Shown piece by piece: positions 586-19,968 of a stretch of DNA of 22,124 bases. Position 1 is the stretch's first letter; each line of letters opens with the position of its first letter. The position numbers and the translations under genes are program-made. The notes beneath the pieces were generated by a model. The model saw nothing but the letters and a program-made list of their open reading frames with translations, made no database searches and was not told the origin of the DNA. This DNA is from a virus, in the IMG/VR virus record IMGVR_UViG_3300030328_001158, positions 1 through 22,124 of that record, one strand, 5' to 3'.

Positions 586-1190
586 TGAGCTATATTGAAG
601 GAAAGTTTTCACCTATTGTTTTAATTGGAATGTCTAGGCATAATCTTTTAAATGAAGTGAATAACACACAGATTATAGCAGATGTTTTAGAAGAACGAGA
701 TATTAAAATAAATTTTGGTTTTGAAGATTCTAGTATTGAAGATTCTTTTTTACCTAAGACACCTGCTGTAAACCTTTTGTTAGAAAAAATAGATAATGTA
801 ATACAGTCTATCAATCCTTATTTATTAAGGGGTGATGAAGCATGGACACATTTAGTAGAACCAGAACAATCTACAATGTTTCATACACATCAAGATCCCG
901 GTCCACCCGGATTGTCATTTGTATATTGGGCTAATTTTCCAAAAAATAGTGGTGATTTTGTAGGAATAGTACAAATAGATAAGTATAGACATTTTCATAA
1001 AGTAGTACCAAGTGAAGGAGATTTAATAATTTTTCCTACTTATCTTCCTCACACAACATCTAGAAATTGTAGTAAAGAAATAAGAATTTCAATATCAGGA
1101 AATTATTATCCACCATTGGATAAACTAAATGAAGTAAGAAACAAACCAAACAAACTATTTAACTACATAGGAGCAATAAGTGGAAAATAA
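585..1190 (+). CDS. 2OG-Fe(II) oxygenase family protein (2OG-FeII_Oxy_5 type)
   Basis: This 201-aa protein shows the facial-triad layout of 2-oxoglutarate/Fe(II) dioxygenases. H102-x-D104 lies in the segment TMFHTHQDPGPPGLSFVYW. H156 is the distal histidine in FPTYLPHTT, and R167 in KEIRISISGNYY is the candidate 2OG carboxylate-binding arginine. The spacing and the FP-x-x-L-x-H ending resemble the Pfam group 2OG-FeII_Oxy_5, a set of phage and marine bacterial proteins with no firmly known substrate. The N-terminal 90 residues hold no recognised domain. It is tightly packed: its ATG overlaps the upstream stop by one base (TAATG), and its end overlaps the ribonucleotide reductase gene by 11 bp. 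The location suggests early expression with the nucleotide genes. Whether it acts on a nucleobase, a protein or a small molecule cannot be told. Confidence 0.8.
   Translation: MSYIEGKFSPIVLIGMSRHNLLNEVNNTQIIADVLEERDIKINFGFEDSSIEDSFLPKTPAVNLLLEKIDNVIQSINPYLLRGDEAWTHLVEPEQSTMFHTHQDPGPPGLSFVYWANFPKNSGDFVGIVQIDKYRHFHKVVPSEGDLIIFPTYLPHTTSRNCSKEIRISISGNYYPPLDKLNEVRNKPNKLFNYIGAISGK
1169..1173 (+). promoter_or_regulatory. Ribosome binding site for the GTG-started ribonucleotide reductase
   Basis: An AGGAG sits six bases before the GTG at 1180. It lies inside the end of the upstream oxygenase gene and supports GTG as the true start. The next in-frame ATG would remove conserved N-terminal residues (SRYSRWL and RRETWEETV). 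Confidence 0.7.
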
Positions 1191-3102
1191 CAAATTACCA
1201 TCAGCATACCAAGAATACATACACACATCACGCTACTCAAGGTGGTTAGATGATGAAAATCGTAGAGAAACATGGGAAGAAACTGTAGGTCGTTACTTTG
1301 ACTACATGAAATCTAGAGAACAAAACAAAAATGTTTTTGACGATAGCACAGTAGAACAATTACAAAAGGCTGTTCTTAATCTTGATATTATGCCTTCTAT
1401 GCGTTTGTTAATGACATCTGGTAAGGCAGTAGAAAAGTGTAACGTGGCTTCTTATAATTGTAGTTATGTTCCTATAGATAGCCCTAGAGCATTTGACGAA
1501 ATACTTTATGTTTTAATGAATGGTACTGGTGTAGGGTTTTCTGTAGAAAGAGAAAGCATAATACAATTACCAGTAGTAGAAGAACACTTTGAAGATAGCA
1601 GTACAGTTATTGTTGTAAAAGATAGTAAGTCTGGTTGGGCTAGGGCATTTAAAGAATTAATATCTTTATTGTATTCCGGTCAAGTTCCTACATGGGATAT
1701 GAGCCAAGTACGACCTGCCGGAGCTAGACTTAAAACTTTTGGTGGAAGGGCAAGTGGTCCTGACCCATTAGAGGATCTGTTCAGATTTGCGGTTAATCTG
1801 TTCAGAAAGAGTGCAGGTAGGCGATTGAGTAGTATAGAGTGCCATGATTTAGTGTGTAAAACGGCACAAGTAGTAGTAGTAGGTGGTGTTCGCAGATCTG
1901 CACTCATTTCTCTTAGTAATCTTAGTGATGATTTATTGCGAGGTGCTAAATCAGGAGACTGGTGGAACCATCATAGTTATAGATCTTATGCTAACAATTC
2001 TGCTGTTTATAAAGATAGACCAGAGATGGGTATATTTATGAAAGAGTGGACATCTCTTTATGAAAGTCGATCTGGTGAAAGAGGTATGTTTAGTCGTTTT
2101 GCAGTAAAAAAACAAGTAGAAGCAAATGGTAGAAGAGATCCTAACTTTGCTTTTGGTACAAATCCGTGTTGTGAGATTATTCTTAGACCTAATCAGTTTT
2201 GTAATTTAACAGAGGTTGTTGTTAAGAAAACAGATACACTAGATACGTTGAAAGAAAAAGTTAGACTAGCAACAATACTAGGAACATATCAATCTACCCT
2301 TACAGACTTTAAATACTTGCGTAAAATATGGCAAAAAACTACAGAAGAAGAAAGATTGCTTGGTGTTAGTCTTACAGGAATAATGGATAACAAAATAACC
2401 AATGGTGCAAAAGGCAACTTAGCAGAGGTTTTAGAAGAACTTAAACACCTTGCTGTTGAAACAAATACAGTATGGGCTGAAGCATTAGGTATTCCTCAAA
2501 GTACAGCAATTACTTGTGTCAAACCATCGGGTACAGTTAGTCAGCTAGTAGATGCCTCAAGTGGTATTCACGCTAGACATAGCCATTACTATATTCGTAG
2601 AGTAAGAGGAGACAAAAAAGATCCACTAACACAATTCTTAATGGATAGTGGCATACCTTGTGAAGATGCAGTTGGAGATATAGAAAGTAAGAATACTGCG
2701 GTGTTTTCTTTTCCTATACAAGCACCTTATGGATCTGTAGTTAATGATGATCTCAATCCTATAAAACATTTAGATTTGTGGTTGACATATCAATTGCATT
2801 GGTGTGAACACAAACCTAGTATAACAATTACTGTTAGAGAACACGAATGGTTAGAGGTTGCCTCATGGGTATATAAGAACTTTGATTATATGTCTGGTGT
2901 GTCATTTTTCCCACACACAGATGCTGTTTATGCTCAAGCACCTTATGAAGAGATAAACAAAGAGGAATATGATAAGTTAGTTTCCTCTATGCCAACAACC
3001 ATAGACTTTTCTAAATTAAGTGAATATGAGAAAGAGGATGGTACAAAAGGCACACAAGAGTTTAGCTGTGTAGGGGATGTATGTGAGGTTGTTGATGTTT
3101 GA
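1180..3102 (+). CDS. Class II (adenosylcobalamin-dependent) ribonucleoside-triphosphate reductase
   Basis: The 640-aa enzyme reduces ribonucleotides to deoxyribonucleotides using a cobalamin-generated thiyl radical, with no oxygen requirement. It matches the monomeric RtpR/NrdJ type. C94 (SYNCSYVP) fits the first redox cysteine. C330, E332 and C341 in NPCCEI...FCNL have the same spacing as the C408/E410/C419 set of the Lactobacillus enzyme. C630 and C635 (CVGDVC) at the tail match the C-terminal cysteine pair that relays electrons from thioredoxin. GTGVGFS and KPSGTVSQL are further family motifs. It is shorter than the roughly 740-aa Lactobacillus protein, with much less sequence just after the first cysteine. 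The start is GTG with a good AGGAG. Activity would need host cobalamin and a thiol donor. It would supply dNTPs for phage replication together with the MazG-like gene. Confidence 0.95.
   Translation: MENNKLPSAYQEYIHTSRYSRWLDDENRRETWEETVGRYFDYMKSREQNKNVFDDSTVEQLQKAVLNLDIMPSMRLLMTSGKAVEKCNVASYNCSYVPIDSPRAFDEILYVLMNGTGVGFSVERESIIQLPVVEEHFEDSSTVIVVKDSKSGWARAFKELISLLYSGQVPTWDMSQVRPAGARLKTFGGRASGPDPLEDLFRFAVNLFRKSAGRRLSSIECHDLVCKTAQVVVVGGVRRSALISLSNLSDDLLRGAKSGDWWNHHSYRSYANNSAVYKDRPEMGIFMKEWTSLYESRSGERGMFSRFAVKKQVEANGRRDPNFAFGTNPCCEIILRPNQFCNLTEVVVKKTDTLDTLKEKVRLATILGTYQSTLTDFKYLRKIWQKTTEEERLLGVSLTGIMDNKITNGAKGNLAEVLEELKHLAVETNTVWAEALGIPQSTAITCVKPSGTVSQLVDASSGIHARHSHYYIRRVRGDKKDPLTQFLMDSGIPCEDAVGDIESKNTAVFSFPIQAPYGSVVNDDLNPIKHLDLWLTYQLHWCEHKPSITITVREHEWLEVASWVYKNFDYMSGVSFFPHTDAVYAQAPYEEINKEEYDKLVSSMPTTIDFSKLSEYEKEDGTKGTQEFSCVGDVCEVVDV
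3085..3088 (+). promoter_or_regulatory. Ribosome binding site deciding the start at 3095
   Basis: A GAGG lies six bases before the ATG at 3095. The earlier in-frame ATG at 3077 has its purine-rich stretch directly against the start codon, which is too close. The later start is therefore preferred. Confidence 0.55.
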
Positions 3103-4553: not shown

Positions 4554-4781
4554 TTATGGACTTTTTAACATACTAATTAACCACATCACACCACTACCGA
4601 CAAGAGCTAGAACAACACCAGCCCCATACATTCTTGATTTTTCTTTTTCAAGTGTATTAACACGCTTGCTAAGTTGTCGAATATCTACTTCAAGGTTTTG
4701 ATGAGATGATACAAGACCATCAACTTTACCCTCTAATCTCCCTATTGCTAAGAGAAGTTCTGTTTGTCTGTCGTCACTCAT
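4554..4781 (-). CDS. XhlA-like coiled-coil protein with C-terminal membrane anchor
   Basis: A 75-aa protein: a heptad-patterned charged helix (about residues 6-48, with IGRLEGKVDGL) followed by one C-terminal membrane segment (about 53-71). This order, coiled coil then a tail anchor, is that of the haemolysin XhlA family, which cooperates with holins in host lysis in some Bacillus phages. Similarity is at the level of topology and pattern, not certain homology. It starts exactly at the stop of the giant internal virion protein gene (TAATG overlap) and leads a run of three membrane-protein genes. An inner-membrane location and a part in lysis are inferred. Confidence 0.55.
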   Translation of the reverse strand: MSDDRQTELLLAIGRLEGKVDGLVSSHQNLEVDIRQLSKRVNTLEKEKSRMYGAGVVLALVGSGVMWLISMLKSP

Positions 4782-7700
4782 TACAGTAGACCAAGATTTT
4801 TCATTTGATCTAAGAGAGGACTATCTTCCGCTCTAGGTCTTAATCTCTCTTTGACCCCTCTTGGTGTACTTACACTTTCTCTCATTATTGTTGGTAGTTT
4901 TGATGGCAATCCTTGATTTGCTCTTTGTAAATCTATTTGTAGTTGTTTTCTTAATTCTGGATTTTTTGATACAAAATACATAGACATGATTAGTTGTACT
5001 GGATCTTGTTTTTGTTTAACAGCTTCTTTAAAAAACCCATTCATATGTTTTTGTATGTCATCTATATCGCTTTGATCATCTTTTTGAGCTATCATAGCAG
5101 CCATAAATTGTGTTTTAAAATAGTTTTGCATCCTAGCTGGTGTTTGTCCGTAACGTACAGCATCCATTATATAAGGAGATAGTTCTGGTGTAGACAATAC
5201 ATTCAGTAGTATACCACTCTTATCATTTAACATATTTCTTAATAAAATTTCTGAACCTATGTAACGTAAACTAACAACACCTCTAGCAGCACCCCAAGCC
5301 CTAGAGAGTAAACCATTTGCTGATAATTTATTGACTGTTTCTGCAAACTGTAAAACACTTCTTGCTGGTTGTTCTGCTAATACAGTCATATCAATAGCAT
5401 GAGCTATACTTCTTGCATGTTTTCCAAAAGCTGTATTCCATAAATCTTCATGTTGAATCCAAATTTTTCTACGAGTCTCTGCATTTTCTCTAAGAATATA
5501 TTGATCTTCTTTTGGTTGAATTTCATTAAGTGCTTTTCTTCTTTTTAGATTTTGATCAAAGACATCAAAAAGTAATGCACGATTTAAAAGTTCTGCAAAG
5601 TTATCAGCATCATCAACACCAACTAGATTTTCCATGTCTTTAATTAATGATTTATATCTAGCAGCAGCTTGTGAGCCATCATTGCTTCTACCAGAACCTA
5701 AAATATGATCTAGTGTAGTTTGAGTAAAACCACTTTTTTCATCTGTACCAGCTAATGCTTTCCAATAACCTACATTAATTTCATCTACAGAATCAAGGTT
5801 TCTTACATTAATTTGTTTTACAGCTTTATTTAAAGATTCGTTTAATTTGTCGCCTTTTTTTAATGCTAATTGTTTTTCCTCGTAAAATTTTAATTTAGAC
5901 AATTCAGATCTAGACTCTTGATCTATTTTAACCATAGGAGCAACTGTATTAACAGCACCAGTCTCTTCTATTTCTGGTAAGAATGTCTCTAAAGTTTTAT
6001 AATCTTTTGCATTTTTTTCACTACCTAAAAGAATATCTAAAAAACCACCTTCAGCTTTTGTTCCAAACATACCCACTTCAAGATTTCTAACTTTTTTTCT
6101 AAGGGCATTTTCAAATTGTTGTTGAGTCATCTTACTTTGGTTACCTATAACAACTCTTAACATTTCTTCTCTTAGTAAGTTTTCAGCTTGTTTTCTATTT
6201 GCACTACCTTCTGGAAACATTTTATCAAAAGCATCTCGTTGTCCATCCATACTTGTAGCATTAAATATTTTAGTAAAAAGATTGCTAAATTTTTCTTCTT
6301 TTGTTGTGCGTAATACTCTACTATTATAAAATAAGCCAGCAACATTATCTTTGTAATTTTTTTGTGCTTCTTCAAAAGCATTTTTTATATTTACATTTTG
6401 AGGTCTTTCTAAAAATGCCTCCATAGAATCATTTATAGTATCTATAGTTTCACCTAGTAAATTTATATATGCCCCATCGGGATTAGCAGTTCTATATTCT
6501 TTAAATAAAGCATCAGCTAAATCTGAACGAAGTTGATGTGCTTCTTTAAAAGTAACAGAATCTCTTGGGGCTTCAAGACCAAGTTCTTTAGCTTCAGCCT
6601 CTAATGGTTTTAATGATTTTCTTAAAATAGTTTTTAATCTAGAAGCAGCAGCAGGTCCATAGTCTAAAGCAGTTGATTGTGTTTCTAGTATATCCCTAAG
6701 TTTTTGTACAGGATATAGTTCCTGCTTTCCTCCTATTTTTTTATAAACTTCGTCATACAAAGCATCAGATTTTTCTTTTGCTTCATCATAGGATTTCATT
6801 ATAATTTTGTGTTGTGCTGTAGCTTTATTAGCAGGTCTTACTGGTCTTTCTCTGCCCTCAAAAGTAACATTGTTTGCAACCAAATTAGAAAATGTTTTTA
6901 TTGATTTGTCTCGTTCATTTATAGCTTTACGAAGATTAGGGAGAGCTTCATCAATTATGTTTTCAAAGCCTTTTATTGTTCCTGTTTCATTAGCCATAAA
7001 AATATTTGAAATAAATATATTTTTATCTACCTCATCGGTTAAACCTGCCAGAGCATTTTTTACTACACGAGTAGCTTCCGCAGTATCAACAACACCAGTA
7101 GCTAAATCCTCTGCGGTGTTAAATAGTGTTTTCATTGAGCGTATAAGTTCGTCTGGATTAACACCACCAATATTATCCCGTAACATTTTTGCAAGCTGTT
7201 CTTGTTGCTTTAACATTGCACGATCAAGACCAGCTTTATCTTCAATACCTGCTGTCTTTGTTTGTCTATCCTCTAATCTGTTTATTTGTTTTATTATGAG
7301 GTTAGCAAGAGTCAATTGAGCATTATTAGCATTAGCTTCAACTATAGCAGCATCTTTAGCTTGATCGGCTAATTTTTTCATGCTGTTTCTACTTAAACTA
7401 CCTTTTATTATGTTCGTTACAGCTTTTGTATCATAAAAACTTCTTGCTGATGCCATAAATAAATAAGTTGTTGCATGGTCAGTAATTTCTTTCATATTTT
7501 TTATATCTTGTTGTAATTCAGCTTCTGGAATACCTGCTTTTCTACCATTCTCAAGATATAGAGCATTACCTTTATTTACTTCATCTAATGATTTGTATAT
7601 CTGATCAAACTGTTCTGGAAATTCATCTCGTAAATTAATTAATTCATCTTGTATTATTTTGTCTATTTTTTTTGCTTGACGAAAAGAAACACCAGAACGA

Positions 7701-14000: not shown

Positions 14001-14462
14001 CTACAAAGATTGTTCTAGTATGTTTATGTCTTTTAACCTATCCCAAGCATGACCATCAAAAACAGGATATACTTCTTTACTTTTGTAATCGACAATTATT
14101 AATGTCCAATTATTATCGTCATCAAAACCTATTGACATCAAACTATTGCCACCATCTAATAAACCTGTCGAGGCTGATAGATCTTGTTTCCAGTTAGATC
14201 CGCTAATTACAATGCAATAAGAGTAAGGATTACTTTTAGGTACCATTAATAGTGACCACTTTTTTTGTGGATTTACTGTAATTCCTATTAGAACTCCGTT
14301 ACTTCCTACTCCTTGCTCTGTTAATACTTCGCCAAAACTACTTTTAAGACCTTGTAAAAAACTTTGTCTTTCTCCGCACATTAATTGTTGTGCTTGTGTT
14401 GATGTTGCTAAAAAACTAGCAACTAAAATAAATATTACACCTATTATATTAAATATTTTCAT
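14001..14462 (-). CDS. Secreted small protein with signal peptide
   Basis: A 153-aa protein with a clear Sec signal peptide: MK, a hydrophobic core (residues 5-19), and a TQA-Q cleavage site after A24. The mature part begins QQLMCGERQSFLQGL, continues with GEVLTEQGVGSNGVLIGI, a KKWSLLMV strand and a second cysteine (C83), then an acidic region DDDNNWTLIIVDY. C29 and C83 could form a disulphide. The pattern CG-R-x-x-L...GE...G...W resembles small periplasmic proteins of alphaproteobacteria, which supports an alphaproteobacterial host and suggests capture from one; this is recalled family resemblance. The start overlaps the oxygenase stop as ATGA. A periplasmic role late in infection (lysis timing, envelope change or superinfection exclusion) is possible, but nothing selects one. 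Confidence 0.6.
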   Translation of the reverse strand: MKIFNIIGVIFILVASFLATSTQAQQLMCGERQSFLQGLKSSFGEVLTEQGVGSNGVLIGITVNPQKKWSLLMVPKSNPYSYCIVISGSNWKQDLSASTGLLDGGNSLMSIGFDDDNNWTLIIVDYKSKEVYPVFDGHAWDRLKDINILEQSL

Positions 14463-15031
14463 GCTAATTCAAACCATCCTGTTGCTATATATTTCTCTTC
14501 ATTAGGTGCTGGAACTCCTCTATGTGTATGAGTCCACTCTGATGACCAAATAAGAGTTAATCCTTTTTTTGGTTTTATTGCTGTTTTTTGTAAAAGAAAC
14601 TGTGTCTCTCCACCTTCTTCAACATCATTTAAATATGTCATAAATGCTAACACTCTTCCATTTGTTTTAGACAAATCTGACATACGCTCACAATGCCATG
14701 TTTTATATCCACCACCTTTAGGATATTTTTGAATATTAAACTCATTCGCTAATCTAAAATTTATACTATTTAAATTAGGAAACAATTCTGCATAACCATT
14801 GATACATTGTTGTAAAGAGCTAATGTAATCACTTATTGTTGGATGTTCACAATAAATAGGAATTGTTTTATCCCATGAATCCTTTATATCTTTATTAACT
14901 TTTGTAGTAGTTTTGCCTTCTCTCGCAATAAAATATGTATCGTCATTAAAAAAATCTATTAGTTGACTACAAATTTTTTCATTTATTGTTTTATAACCAA
15001 TAAAAGAATTTGGTACATCTAAAAGTTTCAA
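14459..15031 (-). CDS. 2OG-Fe(II) oxygenase, prolyl 4-hydroxylase-like
   Basis: A 190-aa protein with the full C-terminal catalytic half of prolyl-4-hydroxylase-type dioxygenases. NIQKYPKGGGYKTWHCE supplies H113-x-E115 (H-x-E instead of the commoner H-x-D). LAFMTYLNDVEEGGETQF is the typical strand-turn. SSEWTHTHRGVPAP carries H170, and KYIATGW carries the 2OG-binding K180. It is unrelated in detail to the other oxygenase at 585-1190, which uses arginine at this place. It lies in the late operon between short-fibre genes and a secreted protein, overlapping both by four bases (ATGA). A protein substrate such as a virion fibre or host envelope protein is plausible from this place, but inferred. 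The H-x-E variant still provides an iron ligand. Confidence 0.85.
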   Translation of the reverse strand: MKLLDVPNSFIGYKTINEKICSQLIDFFNDDTYFIAREGKTTTKVNKDIKDSWDKTIPIYCEHPTISDYISSLQQCINGYAELFPNLNSINFRLANEFNIQKYPKGGGYKTWHCERMSDLSKTNGRVLAFMTYLNDVEEGGETQFLLQKTAIKPKKGLTLIWSSEWTHTHRGVPAPNEEKYIATGWFELA

Positions 15032-15291
15032 TTTTTTAATTGTTCTTTAGCGGTCTTATAATTACTTTGAGCGAGAACTTTTGTAACAAAGTCTGCTTTA
15101 TTACTTGGAATGTCATCTGTAAAACTATTATCATCAATAAATTTTTCTGTCCATTCCTTGTGCATTTTTTTCCATGCCCTATTTTGTTCGCCTGTAACAG
15201 CAAGTTCGACCCATGTTTTTATATCTTCAATATCATTTTTTAATATTTTTTGATCGTCATCAGAGAAAGTTATTTTAATCGTATGTGCCAT
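15028..15291 (-). CDS. Small LNDxxxK-type protein, paralogue C
   Basis: The frame is open to 15366, but the ATG at 15291 is chosen: it starts one base after the previous gene's stop, has AGGTGG eight bases upstream, and aligns with the starts of its paralogues (MA...). The 87-aa product matches the next gene over its whole length: ITFSDDDQKILKNDIEDIKTW, AWKKMHKEW, then DDNSFTDDIPSNKADFV and SNYK. The family (short, acidic N-terminus, DIxxW centre) is common beside structural genes of marine phages; its job is unknown. Placement behind fibre genes suggests an assembly helper or a minor tail-tip part. It overlaps the hydroxylase gene by four bases. Confidence 0.7.
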   Translation of the reverse strand: MAHTIKITFSDDDQKILKNDIEDIKTWVELAVTGEQNRAWKKMHKEWTEKFIDDNSFTDDIPSNKADFVTKVLAQSNYKTAKEQLKN

Positions 15292-15292
15292 T

Positions 15293-15580
15293 TTATTCAC
15301 CACCTGCATCTGCATATGCTTTTTCTCTTGCAGCTCTATCTTTATAATCACTACGTTCTGTGACAAGTTTTATGAACTTACTTTTGTCAGAAGGTATGCC
15401 ATCAGTAAAAGAATCATCATTTGTTAATTTAACCGACCATTCCTTTTCCATACGTTTCCAACAGTTATTTGTTTTTTCATTTGCTTCTTTTAAAATCCAA
15501 GCATCAATGTCAGGTAAATGATTGAGCAATATTTTTTCTTCAGTATCATTTAATTCTATCGTTACAGTTAAATCAGCCAT
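15293..15580 (-). CDS. Small LNDxxxK-type protein, paralogue B
   Basis: A 95-aa protein: VTIELNDTEEKILLNHLPDI, then DAWILKEANEK, CWKRMEKEW, and DDSFTDGIPSDKSKFI with a lysine/aspartate-rich tail. It is a tandem paralogue of the 87-aa gene that follows and more distantly of the 81-aa gene at 16264-16509. Secondary structure looks helical after a short N-terminal strand. A good AGGAG precedes the ATG by six bases and overlaps the end of the C1q-like fibre gene. No known enzyme motif and no membrane segment. Function unknown; linked by position to the fibre immediately upstream. Confidence 0.7.
   Translation of the reverse strand: MADLTVTIELNDTEEKILLNHLPDIDAWILKEANEKTNNCWKRMEKEWSVKLTNDDSFTDGIPSDKSKFIKLVTERSDYKDRAAREKAYADAGGE
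15300..15305 (-). promoter_or_regulatory. Ribosome binding site deciding the start at 15291
   Basis: AGGTGG on the - strand lies eight bases before the ATG at 15291, within the last codons of the upstream paralogue. It favours the short start over the ATG at 15366. Confidence 0.5.
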
Positions 15581-15589
15581 TCTTTTCTC

Positions 15590-16264
15590 CTATGTTAATA
15601 AATACGCACAAAACCAACTGTCTTGGTTCGTTCTATCCGTAGCTCCTCCGTCTACTTGAGCAGAACCAGCAGATTGAAAAAACTTTAAAACCGCTGTGTC
15701 CGAAGCATCCATATCAACAATTACATCCATATTAAAAACATAAAAATCTGGGTCGTTTATTCCCCAACTTGCAATATCATTCAATGCTCTATATGTGCAA
15801 TTAGATGTTACTAATTTTAAGTTATAATAATTAGCGGCACTATCTAGAGCTTCAACTCTATACTGGCAGTTAAACATATATTTTCCAGTAACCGGAGCCG
15901 TGAAGGTTTTCGAGGTCGTGTTAAAATCTGCATTTAAATCCCACACCTCTGTATCATAATTGATGGTAAGGTCTGAACCAGTTGCAATGTTATTTTGTGT
16001 TGTTCCTATGTGGGCATGAAACGAAGGTTGCAATGGTTTAGTCATAATTCCATTGGTGTCAATGGTTACATGACTTGTTGTGCCGTGAGCATTTCCTTTT
16101 CCTATTTCAAGTGTATCAGTACCATCATCTATACCAATGCGGAAGTCTAAGGCATTACCATCAAAAACAATTTTTGTATCTTCGGCTGTTCCATCACCTA
16201 CTGTAGCCGAAGCAGCTATACTTCCTGCCGCTGCTGCTGATGGTGAAATTCCTAAATATGGCAT
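15590..16264 (-). CDS. Short tail fibre / receptor-binding protein with C1q-like C-terminal domain, copy 2
   Basis: A 224-aa protein in two parts. Residues 1-80 form a conserved head (MPYLG, VFDGNALDFRIGIDDGTD, LEIGKGNAHGTT, PLQP) almost the same as in the gene at 16522-17145. Residues about 81-224 form a beta-rich C-terminal domain with NYDTEVWDLNADF, FTAPVTGKYMFNCQY and a final WFCAYLLT strand, the pattern of C1q/TNF-like trimeric jelly rolls. A shared head that docks to the virion and a variable C1q-like tip is typical of receptor-binding fibres. The N-terminal extension is longer than in copy 1 (an Ala/Ser-rich SPSAAAAGSIAAS insert). Its start overlaps the upstream small-protein gene by one base (TAATG). 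Confidence 0.7.
   Translation of the reverse strand: MPYLGISPSAAAAGSIAASATVGDGTAEDTKIVFDGNALDFRIGIDDGTDTLEIGKGNAHGTTSHVTIDTNGIMTKPLQPSFHAHIGTTQNNIATGSDLTINYDTEVWDLNADFNTTSKTFTAPVTGKYMFNCQYRVEALDSAANYYNLKLVTSNCTYRALNDIASWGINDPDFYVFNMDVIVDMDASDTAVLKFFQSAGSAQVDGGATDRTNQDSWFCAYLLT
16025..16264 (-). repeat. Duplicated fibre head module, copy 2
   Basis: This segment encodes the first 80 residues of the fibre gene at 15590-16264 and matches 16930-17145. The best block is the code for DGNALDFRIGIDDGTD, where the + strand reads GCGGAAGTCTAAGGCATT here and ACGGAAGTCTAAGGCATT at 17038-17055. The strong nucleotide match points to a fairly recent duplication or ongoing exchange. Confidence 0.75.
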
Positions 16265-16509
16265 TATTCCACTCCAAGTCTTTTATTTTTATCGACAGCG
16301 GTTTCTATTGTAGCATTTGTAATAGTAGTATTTTTTGTAGAATCAGAAGCCTTCTTGCTTACCCCTTCTAAATCACAATAATAGTCAATCGCTTTTCTAG
16401 CTTTGTTATAAACTGCACCTTCTATCCATGTTTGAATATCAATCATTTGACCATTCATAGCTTTTTGTTGAACGTCATTTAAGGTTACTTTATATTCTTT
16501 GTCTGCCAT
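16264..16509 (-). CDS. Small LNDxxxK-type protein, paralogue A
   Basis: An 81-aa protein: YKVTLNDVQQKAMNGQMIDI, QTWIEGAVYNKARKAIDYY, then a Thr/Asn-rich region ending KNKRLGVE. The LND...DIxTW...A pattern places it with paralogues B and C, but its C-terminal half differs and lacks their DDSFTD block. The N-terminal half is close to a small protein frequently found near structural genes in marine and freshwater phages. It is preceded by CTCCTT on the + strand (AAGGAG) and sits between the two C1q-like fibre genes, so each fibre gene has at least one family member directly behind it. Confidence 0.7.
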   Translation of the reverse strand: MADKEYKVTLNDVQQKAMNGQMIDIQTWIEGAVYNKARKAIDYYCDLEGVSKKASDSTKNTTITNATIETAVDKNKRLGVE

Positions 16510-16521
16510 TGTTTTTCTCCT

Positions 16522-17145
16522 TTAGGCTAATAAGTGGGTCATTGCGTAGGTGTATTCTTTAGAACCAGTTATGTTATCATCAGCACCAAAATTATGTACC
16601 CAATACCATTCTAAATAATCACTTGCATCTAATTTTAAAACACCAGATAAAGGAACTTGGTGGTGGTTTGTTCCTCCAGTAAATTGTAATGACCTTAATA
16701 CTTCTGTTCCATTTTTTCTTATAGAAACACCTATTAATTTACCTGTGTCCATGTGAAAACCACCAGTTAATGTGACAAAATAAAGTCCATCAACAGGTGC
16801 TACGAATTTATAATTGGATAAATCCATGTCATTATTCTGGTCATATTCTTCACTAGCCATAGTCGCTTTTGTCCATGTGTTGTCTGCTATTGTTTGGTTA
16901 CCAGATAAATGACAATAAGCTGCTGGTTGTAATGGCATATTCATAATACCATCACCATCCAATGTCATATGGGTTGTTGTTCCATGTGCGTTACCTTTAC
17001 CAATTTCTAATTTATCTGTTCCATCATCAATGCCGATACGGAAGTCTAAGGCATTGCCGTCAAATACAAGCATGGTATCTTCAGCTACACCAGCACCTAT
17101 TGTTGATGTGGCTGATTTGTTTGGTTCTTTACCTAGATATGGCAT
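16522..17145 (-). CDS. Short tail fibre / receptor-binding protein with C1q-like C-terminal domain, copy 1
   Basis: A 207-aa protein sharing its head with the gene at 15590-16264: MPYLGKEPN, VFDGNALDFRIGIDDGTD, KLEIGKGNAHGTTTHM, then MPLQPA. The C-terminal portion (about residues 75-207) has differing sequence but the same pattern: NNDMDLSNYKFVAPVDGLYFVTL, SIRKNGTEVLRS, HQVPLSGVLKLDASDYLEW and a last TYAMTHLLA strand. This fits a C1q-like jelly-roll tip. It follows the small beta-sandwich gene with a TAATG overlap and lies downstream of the long fibre, so the product probably sits on the tail and binds a surface receptor. Receptor binding is inferred. Confidence 0.7.
   Translation of the reverse strand: MPYLGKEPNKSATSTIGAGVAEDTMLVFDGNALDFRIGIDDGTDKLEIGKGNAHGTTTHMTLDGDGIMNMPLQPAAYCHLSGNQTIADNTWTKATMASEEYDQNNDMDLSNYKFVAPVDGLYFVTLTGGFHMDTGKLIGVSIRKNGTEVLRSLQFTGGTNHHQVPLSGVLKLDASDYLEWYWVHNFGADDNITGSKEYTYAMTHLLA
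16930..17145 (-). repeat. Duplicated fibre head module, copy 1
   Basis: This segment encodes the first 72 residues of the fibre gene at 16522-17145 and is paralogous to 16025-16264. Similarity falls away after the PLQP codons, where the tip domain begins, so the module border coincides with a domain border. Confidence 0.75.
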
Positions 17146-17492
17146 TAAGTTATCTCCATTATTGAAACAGCAATATCAGCAGCAGCACTCGCTGTTAAAG
17201 AAAGAGTGTCTGTAGTTTCCATTACTACTTTATTTCCACCCATCATTTCTAAGGTTGAATTTGCAGGTATTGTTGTTGATGTAAGAAGCTCAACGTCTTG
17301 GTTAGCTTCATTGTTAGCTCCTGCCCTTGAACCTGTATCTGTGCCTAGAGTTAAAGTTGCAGTAATATCCGAACTTTGTGTATTACCAATCATAACTCCT
17401 AAAACAACTGTTGTCGTACTACCAGCAACAGTATAAATCACATCAGCACTTGTTACTCCAGCTTTTGTAATTACCTTAAACGTATTTGCCAT
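17145..17492 (-). CDS. Small beta-sandwich virion protein
   Basis: A 115-aa protein made of alternating hydrophobic strands: DVIYTVAGSTTTVVLGVMIGN, ITATLTLGTD, VELLTSTTIPANSTLEMM, NKVVMETTDTLSLTASAAADIAVSIMEIT. It is rich in Thr/Ser/Ala and contains no cysteine. Spacing of strands resembles the 113-aa protein encoded at 21489-21830 and similar small proteins near tail genes of marine phages. No enzyme motif. A decoration, tail-tip or adaptor part is likely. AGGAG seven bases before the ATG overlaps the end of the long-fibre gene; the stop overlaps the next start (TAATG). Confidence 0.6.
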   Translation of the reverse strand: MANTFKVITKAGVTSADVIYTVAGSTTTVVLGVMIGNTQSSDITATLTLGTDTGSRAGANNEANQDVELLTSTTIPANSTLEMMGGNKVVMETTDTLSLTASAAADIAVSIMEIT

Positions 17493-17502
17493 TATGTATC
17501 TC

Positions 17503-19968
17503 CTATCCTAAAGCAACGGCTAATGCTGTGGCATCTCCAACTGAAGCTCCACCTGCATAAGTTTTTATATCGGAAGCTGGTATTTGCTTCGTTGTTGTAC
17601 CATCAATAATTATAATTGCATCACTATCTGCAACAGTTATTGATGATGTTGATTTAGCAGAACCATCAAGTAAATTTAATTCTGCTGCGGTTGATCCTAC
17701 ATTTGTTCCACCAATATCTAGTGTAGTCATAGAGACTTCACCATTAACTGTTAGTATAGCAGAACCTAATTCTAATAAGTCTGTATCTCCTGCACCACCT
17801 ATTGTACCACCAGACTTAATTACTAAATCATCTTTGACTGTTAATAAACCTGCTGAACTTATTGTTAAAGCATCATTGGTAGAAGCAACACCTATTGTTC
17901 CACCATCTTTAATCATAATGTCATCTGCAACAGTAAGTAATCCAGCAGAACTCAATGACATTTTTTCTGATGCAGCTTCTGATGCACCTGTTTTAAATGA
18001 TAACTTAGTAGCATTATTATCCGCAGCAAATGTACCTTCAGCTACAGCTTCTATAGCAGCAGCTACTAAAATAGCATCCGTACCACCAGCCTCATCTGGA
18101 GCTTGGAAATTAATTGTTCCTAAAGGCTCTCCAACAGTTAAAGCTGTTTCACCAGTTTGTAAAGTTAAAGATATTGGAGTACCATCACCTGTAGCTGTAT
18201 GCTTTAGAAGTAGACCTGCATCTGCATTATGAATAAGTTTAACTTCACCATCATCACCGAATAATAATTCAGCAGCATCAGAATCTAATTGAACATTGTC
18301 TGCAAAGTTAGCATCATCTCCAGCAAATGTCAAGGCTGTTGTTGGTGTAGATCCAGATTTTATTACTACTTCACCACCAGAATTTGTAATACTACCAAAA
18401 GTTGTTCCATCATCTTTAAGAACTATATCAGCTCCACCAGCATCTAAATTAATATCTGCAACAGAGTCTAATGTTATATCACCAGAGTTACTTGATTGTA
18501 TTGTAACACCAGTATGACCATCTAAAGTTGCTGTACCCGCTTGTGAATCTACAAGAACATTACCGGAAGATGTTTCTAAACTAACAGCTCCATCACCAGT
18601 TGTAATATTATCAGCAGCTATAGCACTTGATTCAGCACTTGTGTATGTATTAATCTGTGAGGCATTGACCTTTTTAACAGTATTGCTGTCATCTGCATCA
18701 GCAACCAAGAATAAATCACCAGCAGCAATTGTTATTCCTGTACCATCAGCAGCAGCCGTTAAATCAAATTTATCTGGATCAATCGCTGCGGTAGCAGAAA
18801 TATCAGCATTAACAATAACACCTGTGCTAATAGATACAGCACCTGTATTACTAATTCCTATATCACCTGATACTGCAACAGGATTAAAGTTTGTACCATC
18901 TGCCACCATAATATGTCCAGAGGTGTTAGTACCCATTGTAATGTCATCCCCAGAAACTGTCAAGTCTCCTGAGATTGTTAAATTACCACCAGAACTTAGT
19001 GACATCTTTTCACTAGCTGTTTCAGAAGCAGCAGTTCTAAAACTTAATTTTGTTGCATTGTTTGATGAACTAAAATCTCCTTCAGATACAGCAGCTATTC
19101 CAGCAGCAACAAGTATTGCATCTGTACCTGTTGTTTCATCAGGTGCTTGAAAGTCAATACGACCAATCACATCATTTATAGCAATATCTTCTTCACCTGT
19201 TTGTAATGTTAAAACTACAGGTTTATCATCTCCAGTTGCTGTATGTTTTAAATTTAATCCTGTATCAGCAACATGAGTAACAGTTATTTCTTGGTCATCT
19301 CCAAATTTAAGAACACCACTATCAGAGTCCAGTAATACATCATCTGTAATTGTAAGGTCATTTCCTACAGTTAAGTTACCTGCAACTGCCATAGTTGAAC
19401 TAGCTACTGTAGCATTTGGTGTTAATGTTAAATGTGTTACATATGTACCAGCAGAATTTATATCATTGCCTAATGTAATAGTTCCCCCATCTGCTACATT
19501 AAGTTTCCATTCATCTCCAGCGTCATCTCCTTCGTCTGCCATTAATGTAATAGCTAATCCTGCACCTTCTGTTGCAGCTATTTTTAAAGAGTCTGTTGTG
19601 GTTTCATCATAACTTATAGCAACATTTGAATCTGAACCAAAAATTAATTGTTCATCATCAATAATCATTATGTCATCAGAGAACTTAAATTGGTCCTCAT
19701 CTTCCATCCATGTTAAAACACCATCAGATGTTTCACCATCAAATGTTACTGTTATGTCTGTTCCTGCTGTTGCATCACCAATAGTAATTGATGTTCCTAA
19801 TAATTTAGTAACATTACCGCCTTCAGCAGTTGTTCCATCATGGCTATGCCCTGTTGAAGCAGCGAAAGCTGTTACGAGTGCAGCAAATTCATTGTTAAAA
19901 TCAGCAGCATTAATAACTTCACCATCAACAATTTCTGAGCTACTTTGCCTTGTATATGTTGCACCCAT
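17503..19968 (-). CDS. Long tail fibre with internal repeats
   Basis: An 821-aa protein, strongly Thr/Ser/Asp/Gly/Ala-rich with almost no aromatic residues, as in trimeric beta-helical fibres. The N-terminal 50 residues (IVDGEVINAADFNNEFAALVTAF, then GHSHDGT at 40-46) form a probable virion-docking module common at the head of marine phage fibres. A block of about 120 residues occurs twice (about 212-333 and 561-680) with LKHTATGDxxP, TLQTGE, FQAPDE, GTDAILVAA, NNATKLSF and ASEKMSLSS in each. Short SSAGLLTVxDDxxIKxGGTIG units repeat after the second copy. No C-terminal intramolecular chaperone (S74 type) and no lyase domain was recognised. Its start overlaps the nozzle gene stop (TAATG). Confidence 0.75.
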   Translation of the reverse strand: MGATYTRQSSSEIVDGEVINAADFNNEFAALVTAFAASTGHSHDGTTAEGGNVTKLLGTSITIGDATAGTDITVTFDGETSDGVLTWMEDEDQFKFSDDIMIIDDEQLIFGSDSNVAISYDETTTDSLKIAATEGAGLAITLMADEGDDAGDEWKLNVADGGTITLGNDINSAGTYVTHLTLTPNATVASSTMAVAGNLTVGNDLTITDDVLLDSDSGVLKFGDDQEITVTHVADTGLNLKHTATGDDKPVVLTLQTGEEDIAINDVIGRIDFQAPDETTGTDAILVAAGIAAVSEGDFSSSNNATKLSFRTAASETASEKMSLSSGGNLTISGDLTVSGDDITMGTNTSGHIMVADGTNFNPVAVSGDIGISNTGAVSISTGVIVNADISATAAIDPDKFDLTAAADGTGITIAAGDLFLVADADDSNTVKKVNASQINTYTSAESSAIAADNITTGDGAVSLETSSGNVLVDSQAGTATLDGHTGVTIQSSNSGDITLDSVADINLDAGGADIVLKDDGTTFGSITNSGGEVVIKSGSTPTTALTFAGDDANFADNVQLDSDAAELLFGDDGEVKLIHNADAGLLLKHTATGDGTPISLTLQTGETALTVGEPLGTINFQAPDEAGGTDAILVAAAIEAVAEGTFAADNNATKLSFKTGASEAASEKMSLSSAGLLTVADDIMIKDGGTIGVASTNDALTISSAGLLTVKDDLVIKSGGTIGGAGDTDLLELGSAILTVNGEVSMTTLDIGGTNVGSTAAELNLLDGSAKSTSSITVADSDAIIIIDGTTTKQIPASDIKTYAGGASVGDATALAVALG
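17930..18288 (-). repeat. Internal repeat of the long fibre, second copy
   Basis: Encodes residues about 561-680 of the long fibre. It matches residues about 212-333 in order of motifs: LDSD, FGDD, LKHTATGD, TLQTGE, FQAPDE, TDAILVAA, NNATKLSF, EKMSLSS. Confidence 0.7.
18970..19335 (-). repeat. Internal repeat of the long fibre, first copy
   Basis: Encodes residues about 212-333 of the long fibre; partner of 17930-18288. The copies start about 349 residues apart, so a long unrelated segment lies between them. Confidence 0.7.

Follow-up and report, generated by a model that had tools for sequence, protein, structure and literature searches.

Introduction

Modular swapping of fibre tips has long been known in T-even, P2/Mu and Klebsiella phages. 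We analysed the tail-fibre island of an uncultured marine phage in the IMG/VR virus record IMGVR_UViG_3300030328_001158, the entire 22,124 bases of which are called the window here; it carries two adjacent short fibre genes with C1q-like tips, F1 and F2, and three small genes behind them, S1 to S3. In pelagiphages, C1q receptor-binding proteins with a conserved N-terminus and a hypervariable C1q domain were described from read recruitment, and their islands also list XkdW, fibre-assembly and Fe(II)-oxygenase genes (Mizuno et al., 2014, PMC3909814). In those marine phages, as in the window, the C1q gene adjoins a tail fibre. Neither tip swapping nor the C1q receptor-binding proteins of pelagiphages are new in themselves; what is added here to the read-recruitment work (PMC3909814) are explicit head/tip recombinants, the exactly mapped border between the exchanged parts and the S family, which is linked almost perfectly to C1q tips.

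Fibre genes with companion chaperones have been described in other phages. In the myocyanophage Pam3, the fibre gp24, which contains a TNF-like domain, forms a complex with the chaperone gp25 (PMC9608196). Pam3 resembles the window in its short fibre, N-terminal docking part, TNF-like (C1q-related) fold and small adjacent companion. However, gp25 is a protein of 162 residues with a Tfa-like beta-sandwich and a helical domain, whereas the S proteins have 80-95 residues, are predicted to be all-helical and show no detected relation to it, and gp24, unlike F1 and F2, also has a glycine-rich tip. In Alteromonas phages V22 and A5, a fibre and its cognate chaperone are common to distant marine lineages and move together (PMC7289586, PMC10579305), but their fibre folds and chaperone family differ from those of the window, and whole modules are exchanged with no tip border inside one gene. 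Phage HMO-2011 (NC_021864) is like the window in that short fibre genes are lined up behind its neighbour protein gp44; one of them is a C1q gene with a Phage_tail_APC companion. The cultured pelagiphage HTVC115P (MN698247; locus L083, 9032-13547) carries four C1q-tip open reading frames (ORFs), three of them adjacent and all annotated as hypothetical. Neither the head module of F1 and F2 (module H) nor the S family was found in HMO-2011 or HTVC115P.

Taken overall, the fibre genes of the window are probably best explained as interchangeable tail-fibre cassettes in which S acts as a chaperone of the tip. The parts of this explanation that were observed, namely the architecture, the C1q fold, the exchange of tips and heads and the S-tip linkage, are described first.

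Results

Both fibre genes lie on the minus strand and consist of an anchor-like MPYLG start, a head formed by the shaft-type module H, and a C1q-type tip. F1 (16522..17145, 207 amino acids) has its head in residues 1-68 (16942..17145, to DGDGIM) and its tip in residues 69-207 plus the stop codon (16522..16941). F2 (15590..16264, 224 amino acids) has the same layout, with the head in residues 1-74 (16043..16264, to DTNGIM) and the tip in residues 75-224 plus the stop codon (15590..16042). On the same strand, F1 is followed by its tip companion S1 (16264..16509, 81 amino acids), and F2 by its tip companion S2 (15293..15580, 95 amino acids) and by S3 (15028..15291, 87 amino acids), a tandem paralogue of S2. 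Shine-Dalgarno-like sequences precede F1, S1, F2 and S2. The start of S3 is best read as the ATG at 15291, in preference to a TTG at 15366.

The F1 and F2 heads are 74% identical over 68 amino acids and 83% identical over a 48-residue core, and the tips are 22% identical, an alignment well beyond chance (z = 7.2 over shuffles). The first-pass annotation had described two adjacent fibres with a nearly identical head and divergent tips; the common head and the divergent tips were borne out, but "nearly identical" was too strong, since the head core is 74% identical at the nucleotide level and its synonymous divergence is saturated. When identity was mapped along F1, F2 and their relatives, divergence was not uniform. 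Identity drops at the DxNGIM-xx-PLQP codons, and the alignments of relatives break there, in agreement with the sharp border that had been proposed at the PLQP codons. The border lies at 16924..16960 in F1 (DxxGIM-xx-PLQP) and at 16022..16063 in F2 (DTNGIM-TK-PLQP).

The tips have a C1q fold, as had been claimed from the sequence alone. F2 was modelled as a monomer, and its C-terminal tip matched the gC1q crystal structures of C1QL1 and C1QL3 (E ~6e-9, template modelling (TM) score on the target 0.82-0.84); the F1 tip was placed by its alignment to the F2 tip. The Pfam C1q profile matched F1 (E = 7.6e-4) and F2 (E = 2.4e-4) just short of the curated cut-off, and matched 33 of 43 relatives, the best at 3.9e-13. 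A family profile searched against PDB sequences found cerebellin, adiponectin and C1q-like chains, with its best score (2.9e-13) on a chain with three C1q copies and 4e-8 on single-domain chains.

Related loci demonstrated that tips and heads are exchanged between phages. Locus L019 matches the window at ~90% nucleotide identity over the gene before F1 and over the F1 head. This match ends at 16923, within the PLQP codons, and picks up again at 16529, at the gene end. The L019 head is 88% and its tip 31% identical to F1, and this different tip recurs in L089 (96% identity), there placed behind a different head at another position. The opposite arrangement was found in two loci. L147 has the same flank as the window (93-100% per 30-base bin) and an F1-like tip (76%) with a 62% identical head, and in L001 an unrelated head (34%) precedes the F2 tip, S2, S3 and the following oxygenase gene, which match at 89% nucleotide identity (tip 85%), the alignment beginning at 16063, in the DxNGIM codons. 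Judged by these alignments, the GIM-PLQP border is a real recombination point.

The phylogenetic data gave the same picture. In the head tree, window F1, window F2, L019, L089, L025 and L002 form one clade (support 100/99), a grouping that the tip data reject in the approximately unbiased (AU) test (p-AU = 2e-50), and the head grouping of L147, L148 and L143 is likewise rejected by the tip data (p-AU = 4.6e-6). The tested groups were named after the head tree was seen, and the p-values are to be read as indicative. The AU test of the S1-type heads as one clade gave no rejection (p = 0.08), and the head tree alone is therefore no proof that these heads are scattered. Among 41 fibres with both the head and a C1q tip, heads were at least 85% identical in 83 pairs, and within these pairs the tips were at least 70% identical in only one and at most 40% identical in 64. 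With the S1-type cassettes removed, head and tip distances were uncorrelated (r = 0.007, p = 0.47), which supports free shuffling. The proposed exchange of tips, including different tips behind the same head in related phages, was thus found, and F1 and F2 have the layout of modular receptor-binding proteins, with a conserved N-terminal part and a swapped C-terminal tip.

The small gene S follows the tip. It was present after 33 of the 40 head+C1q fibres with downstream sequence and after none of 60 head fibres without C1q. In a sample collected from S itself (80 loci, with upstream sequence for 74 S genes), 71 S genes directly follow a C1q-tip fibre at a median gap of 37 nucleotides, three follow another S and none follows anything else; the head H was present in only 15 of these 71 C1q fibres. 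By gene order, S is a companion of the tip and not of the head. Proteins of the S1 subtype occur with a single tip clade (support 100/98). In L019, where the F1 tip is exchanged, the N-terminal half of S1 has diverged too (66% amino acid identity) but the C-terminal half has not (91%).

The first-pass annotation had each fibre followed by members of one small-protein family. This was confirmed for S2 and S3, which are clear paralogues (41% amino acid identity, z = 15 over shuffles), and extends to S1 only through its first 38 residues, the sole part that S1 has in common with S2-type proteins (E = 2e-10 against the S2-type profile in a single comparison). S1 to S3 gave no credible match in Pfam or PHROG, and no member of the family scored better than 0.004 in PHROG. 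The S2 model is all-helical (mean predicted local distance difference test score 94); searched with Foldseek against BFVD, it found only unnamed or uncharacterised proteins (best E = 2.7e-3). IMG/VR yielded 459 relatives of S, 50,697 phage records yielded none that was credible, and 84,980 prokaryote genomes yielded 12 pattern matches in bacteria but no relative with the patterns used. The full S alignment was too diverse for the collection scan, and a tighter alignment was used.

C1q fibres without S (n = 22) carry other small genes in the same slot, XkdW in 10 and Phage_tail_APC in five; in L031, a Phage_tail_APC companion (E 2.7e-17) stands behind a head+C1q fibre. The C1q-fibre companions in L006, L013, L020, L029, L038 and L041 combine at least three different N-terminal domains with a common C-terminal motif (GDQLDxLYKD...IKAVKDANPK); Tfa proteins are modular in a similar way. 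L147 (1481-2777), L148 (4222-5509) and L089 (3639-4985) also contain an additional fibre cassette, in which an MPYLG-type start is joined to a non-C1q body (NLLINGxM..QRG motif); its companion has 61-66 residues, a GNTI/GNTV motif and no Pfam match.

Head module H is widespread. A profile of its 50-residue core detected 207 copies in the fetched loci, with a maximum of five in tandem in one protein, and 60 distinct fibres have the module but no recognised C1q tip. The head is, on this distribution, a shaft-type repeat reused across many marine phage fibres and not a special dock. The MPYLG start is common to fibres with quite different bodies and appears to be the likelier anchor. The earlier description of the head as a constant dock was too simple, since the module serves non-C1q fibres and is itself exchanged in L147; yet head sequences track the phage lineage in the tree, in keeping with a part that has to fit the other tail components.

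The structural genes of the window are encoded on the minus strand in the order 505-residue tail protein, 821-residue repetitive fibre, 115-residue protein, F1, S1, F2, S2, S3 and 2-oxoglutarate-Fe(II) (2OG-Fe(II)) oxygenase. The tail protein is 46% identical to HMO-2011 gp44 over its full 505 amino acids, and a fibre array follows it. The region is probably a tail-fibre island from a marine podovirus; the tail protein and the fibre array behind it relate this 22 kb fragment to the HMO-2011 type. The 821-residue fibre (17503-19968, minus strand) lies upstream of the 115-residue protein and consists of long beta-type repeats; the related fibre of L019 is extended by additional repeat units, which suggests gain or loss of repeats. 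The conserved 115-residue protein (17145..17492, minus strand), of structural type, forms the upstream boundary of the fibre island. The last gene of the island encodes the 2OG-Fe(II) oxygenase (14459-15031, minus strand; PF13640, E = 1.6e-13), which may modify a tail or host component. It overlaps the end of S3 and accompanies the F2 tip cassette in L001; L143 has two oxygenase genes (1319-1897 and 4570-5142), one after an upstream gene and the other after the C1q array. On the plus strand, opposite to the structural genes, a 640-residue ORF (1180-3102) resembles ribonucleotide reductase by sequence.

No reverse transcriptase was found in 12 records (the window and 11 related ones, mostly fragments), and a diversity-generating retroelement was rejected on that basis, in line with the first-pass annotation.

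Discussion

We propose that each cassette would consist of a short MPYLG anchor, the beta-rich shaft module H and a C1q-fold tip, together with a tip-specific small protein S. Recombination would occur at two places, close to the start codon and at the GIM-xx-PLQP codons, and would swap heads and tips between phages; S would travel with the tip, in whole or at least in part. S would act as an intermolecular chaperone in the folding or trimerisation of the C1q tip. With two cassettes, the phage would have two different tips, presumably directed at two receptors or at variants of a receptor. In this model we infer chaperone function, trimerisation, receptor binding and the presence of both fibres in the virion.

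S is most likely a new family of tail-fibre chaperones, an assignment by analogy, since other C1q fibres carry assembly-type families (XkdW and Phage_tail_APC) in the S slot; like the genes of chaperone families, S lies directly downstream of its fibre. A more specific proposal has, in our estimate, an even chance of being right: that S is a chaperone family found only in ocean viruses and dedicated to C1q-fold tips, built from a 38-residue N-terminal module and varied C-terminal halves, and that a tip with its matching S is a portable unit of specificity across marine phages.

Several observations weigh against the chaperone cassette model. S lacks the sequence or fold of a known chaperone family (Tfa, Phage_tail_APC or XkdW); no fold match to the PDB was obtained with the S2 model in Foldseek, and the S profile gave only noise against PDB sequences. 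Tip and S distances correlate weakly among S2-type cassettes (r 0.21, p 0.07), and in L143 three C1q fibres in tandem are accompanied by just one S2-type and one S3-type protein, so that one S per tip is not strict. The N-termini of the companions behind head+C1q fibres in L031, L038 and L041 show a weak resemblance to that of S (hhalign E 7e-4 over 24 columns, probability only 26%); in L031 the resembling stretch is followed by a Phage_tail_APC domain.

S could instead be a permanent part of the virion that sits on the C1q tip as an adhesin cap or adaptor, likened to gp38 on gp37 in some T-even-like phages, with cassette swapping otherwise unchanged. Its linkage to the tip is as tight as that of a structural partner, and S is under purifying selection. 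We nevertheless regard a cap as unlikely, because XkdW and Phage_tail_APC proteins take this position behind other C1q fibres and because the companion of the TNF-like-tip fibre in Pam3 was undetected in virions (PMC9608196).

It is similarly improbable that only one fibre is displayed and that the second cassette serves passively, as a spare or as a donor for recombination. The number of C1q fibre copies in the island does vary from one to four among relatives. However, both cassettes of the window have intact ORFs with plausible starts, and the ratio of nonsynonymous to synonymous substitution rates (dN/dS) for tip and S is ~0.1-0.4, below 0.4 in both cassettes, which indicates that both have been used over evolutionary time; the cultured HTVC115P and HTVC019P also keep several C1q ORFs.

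The first-pass annotation had proposed that fibre and small protein duplicated as a block. The 83% identity of the head cores and their place in one lineage-specific head clade favour such a duplication in recent time, in tandem and with later replacement of the tip, but the saturated synonymous sites of the heads and the split between S1 and S2, which differ in their C-terminal halves, led us to reject a recent event. The F1 head is also closer to the L019 and L089 heads than to the F2 head, the F1 and F2 tips belong to different tip clades, and in L001 the F2 tip, S2 and S3 occur without F1 and S1. A recent block duplication is quite unlikely on these grounds; an old one may have taken place, and the two cassettes look either independently assembled or very old.

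That no swapping occurred, and that the tips are orthologues which merely evolved faster than the heads by point mutation, would fit the greater variability of tips everywhere (mean identity 32%, against 72% for heads), but it is highly improbable and, for the pairs listed, ruled out by the reciprocal incongruence of heads and tips, as fast point evolution cannot yield the conserved tips behind changed heads in L147 and L001, nor near-identical tips behind different heads in L019 and L089, nor the AU results.

For marine phages, in which C1q-tip exchange had so far been deduced from read recruitment, these loci supply explicit recombinants together with an exact border. HTVC115P offers a practical model for multi-tip display. 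The S gene can serve as a marker that points to a C1q receptor-binding tip just upstream, and, should S prove to be a chaperone, receptor studies on marine bacteria that are hard to culture would require C1q tips to be expressed together with the matching S.

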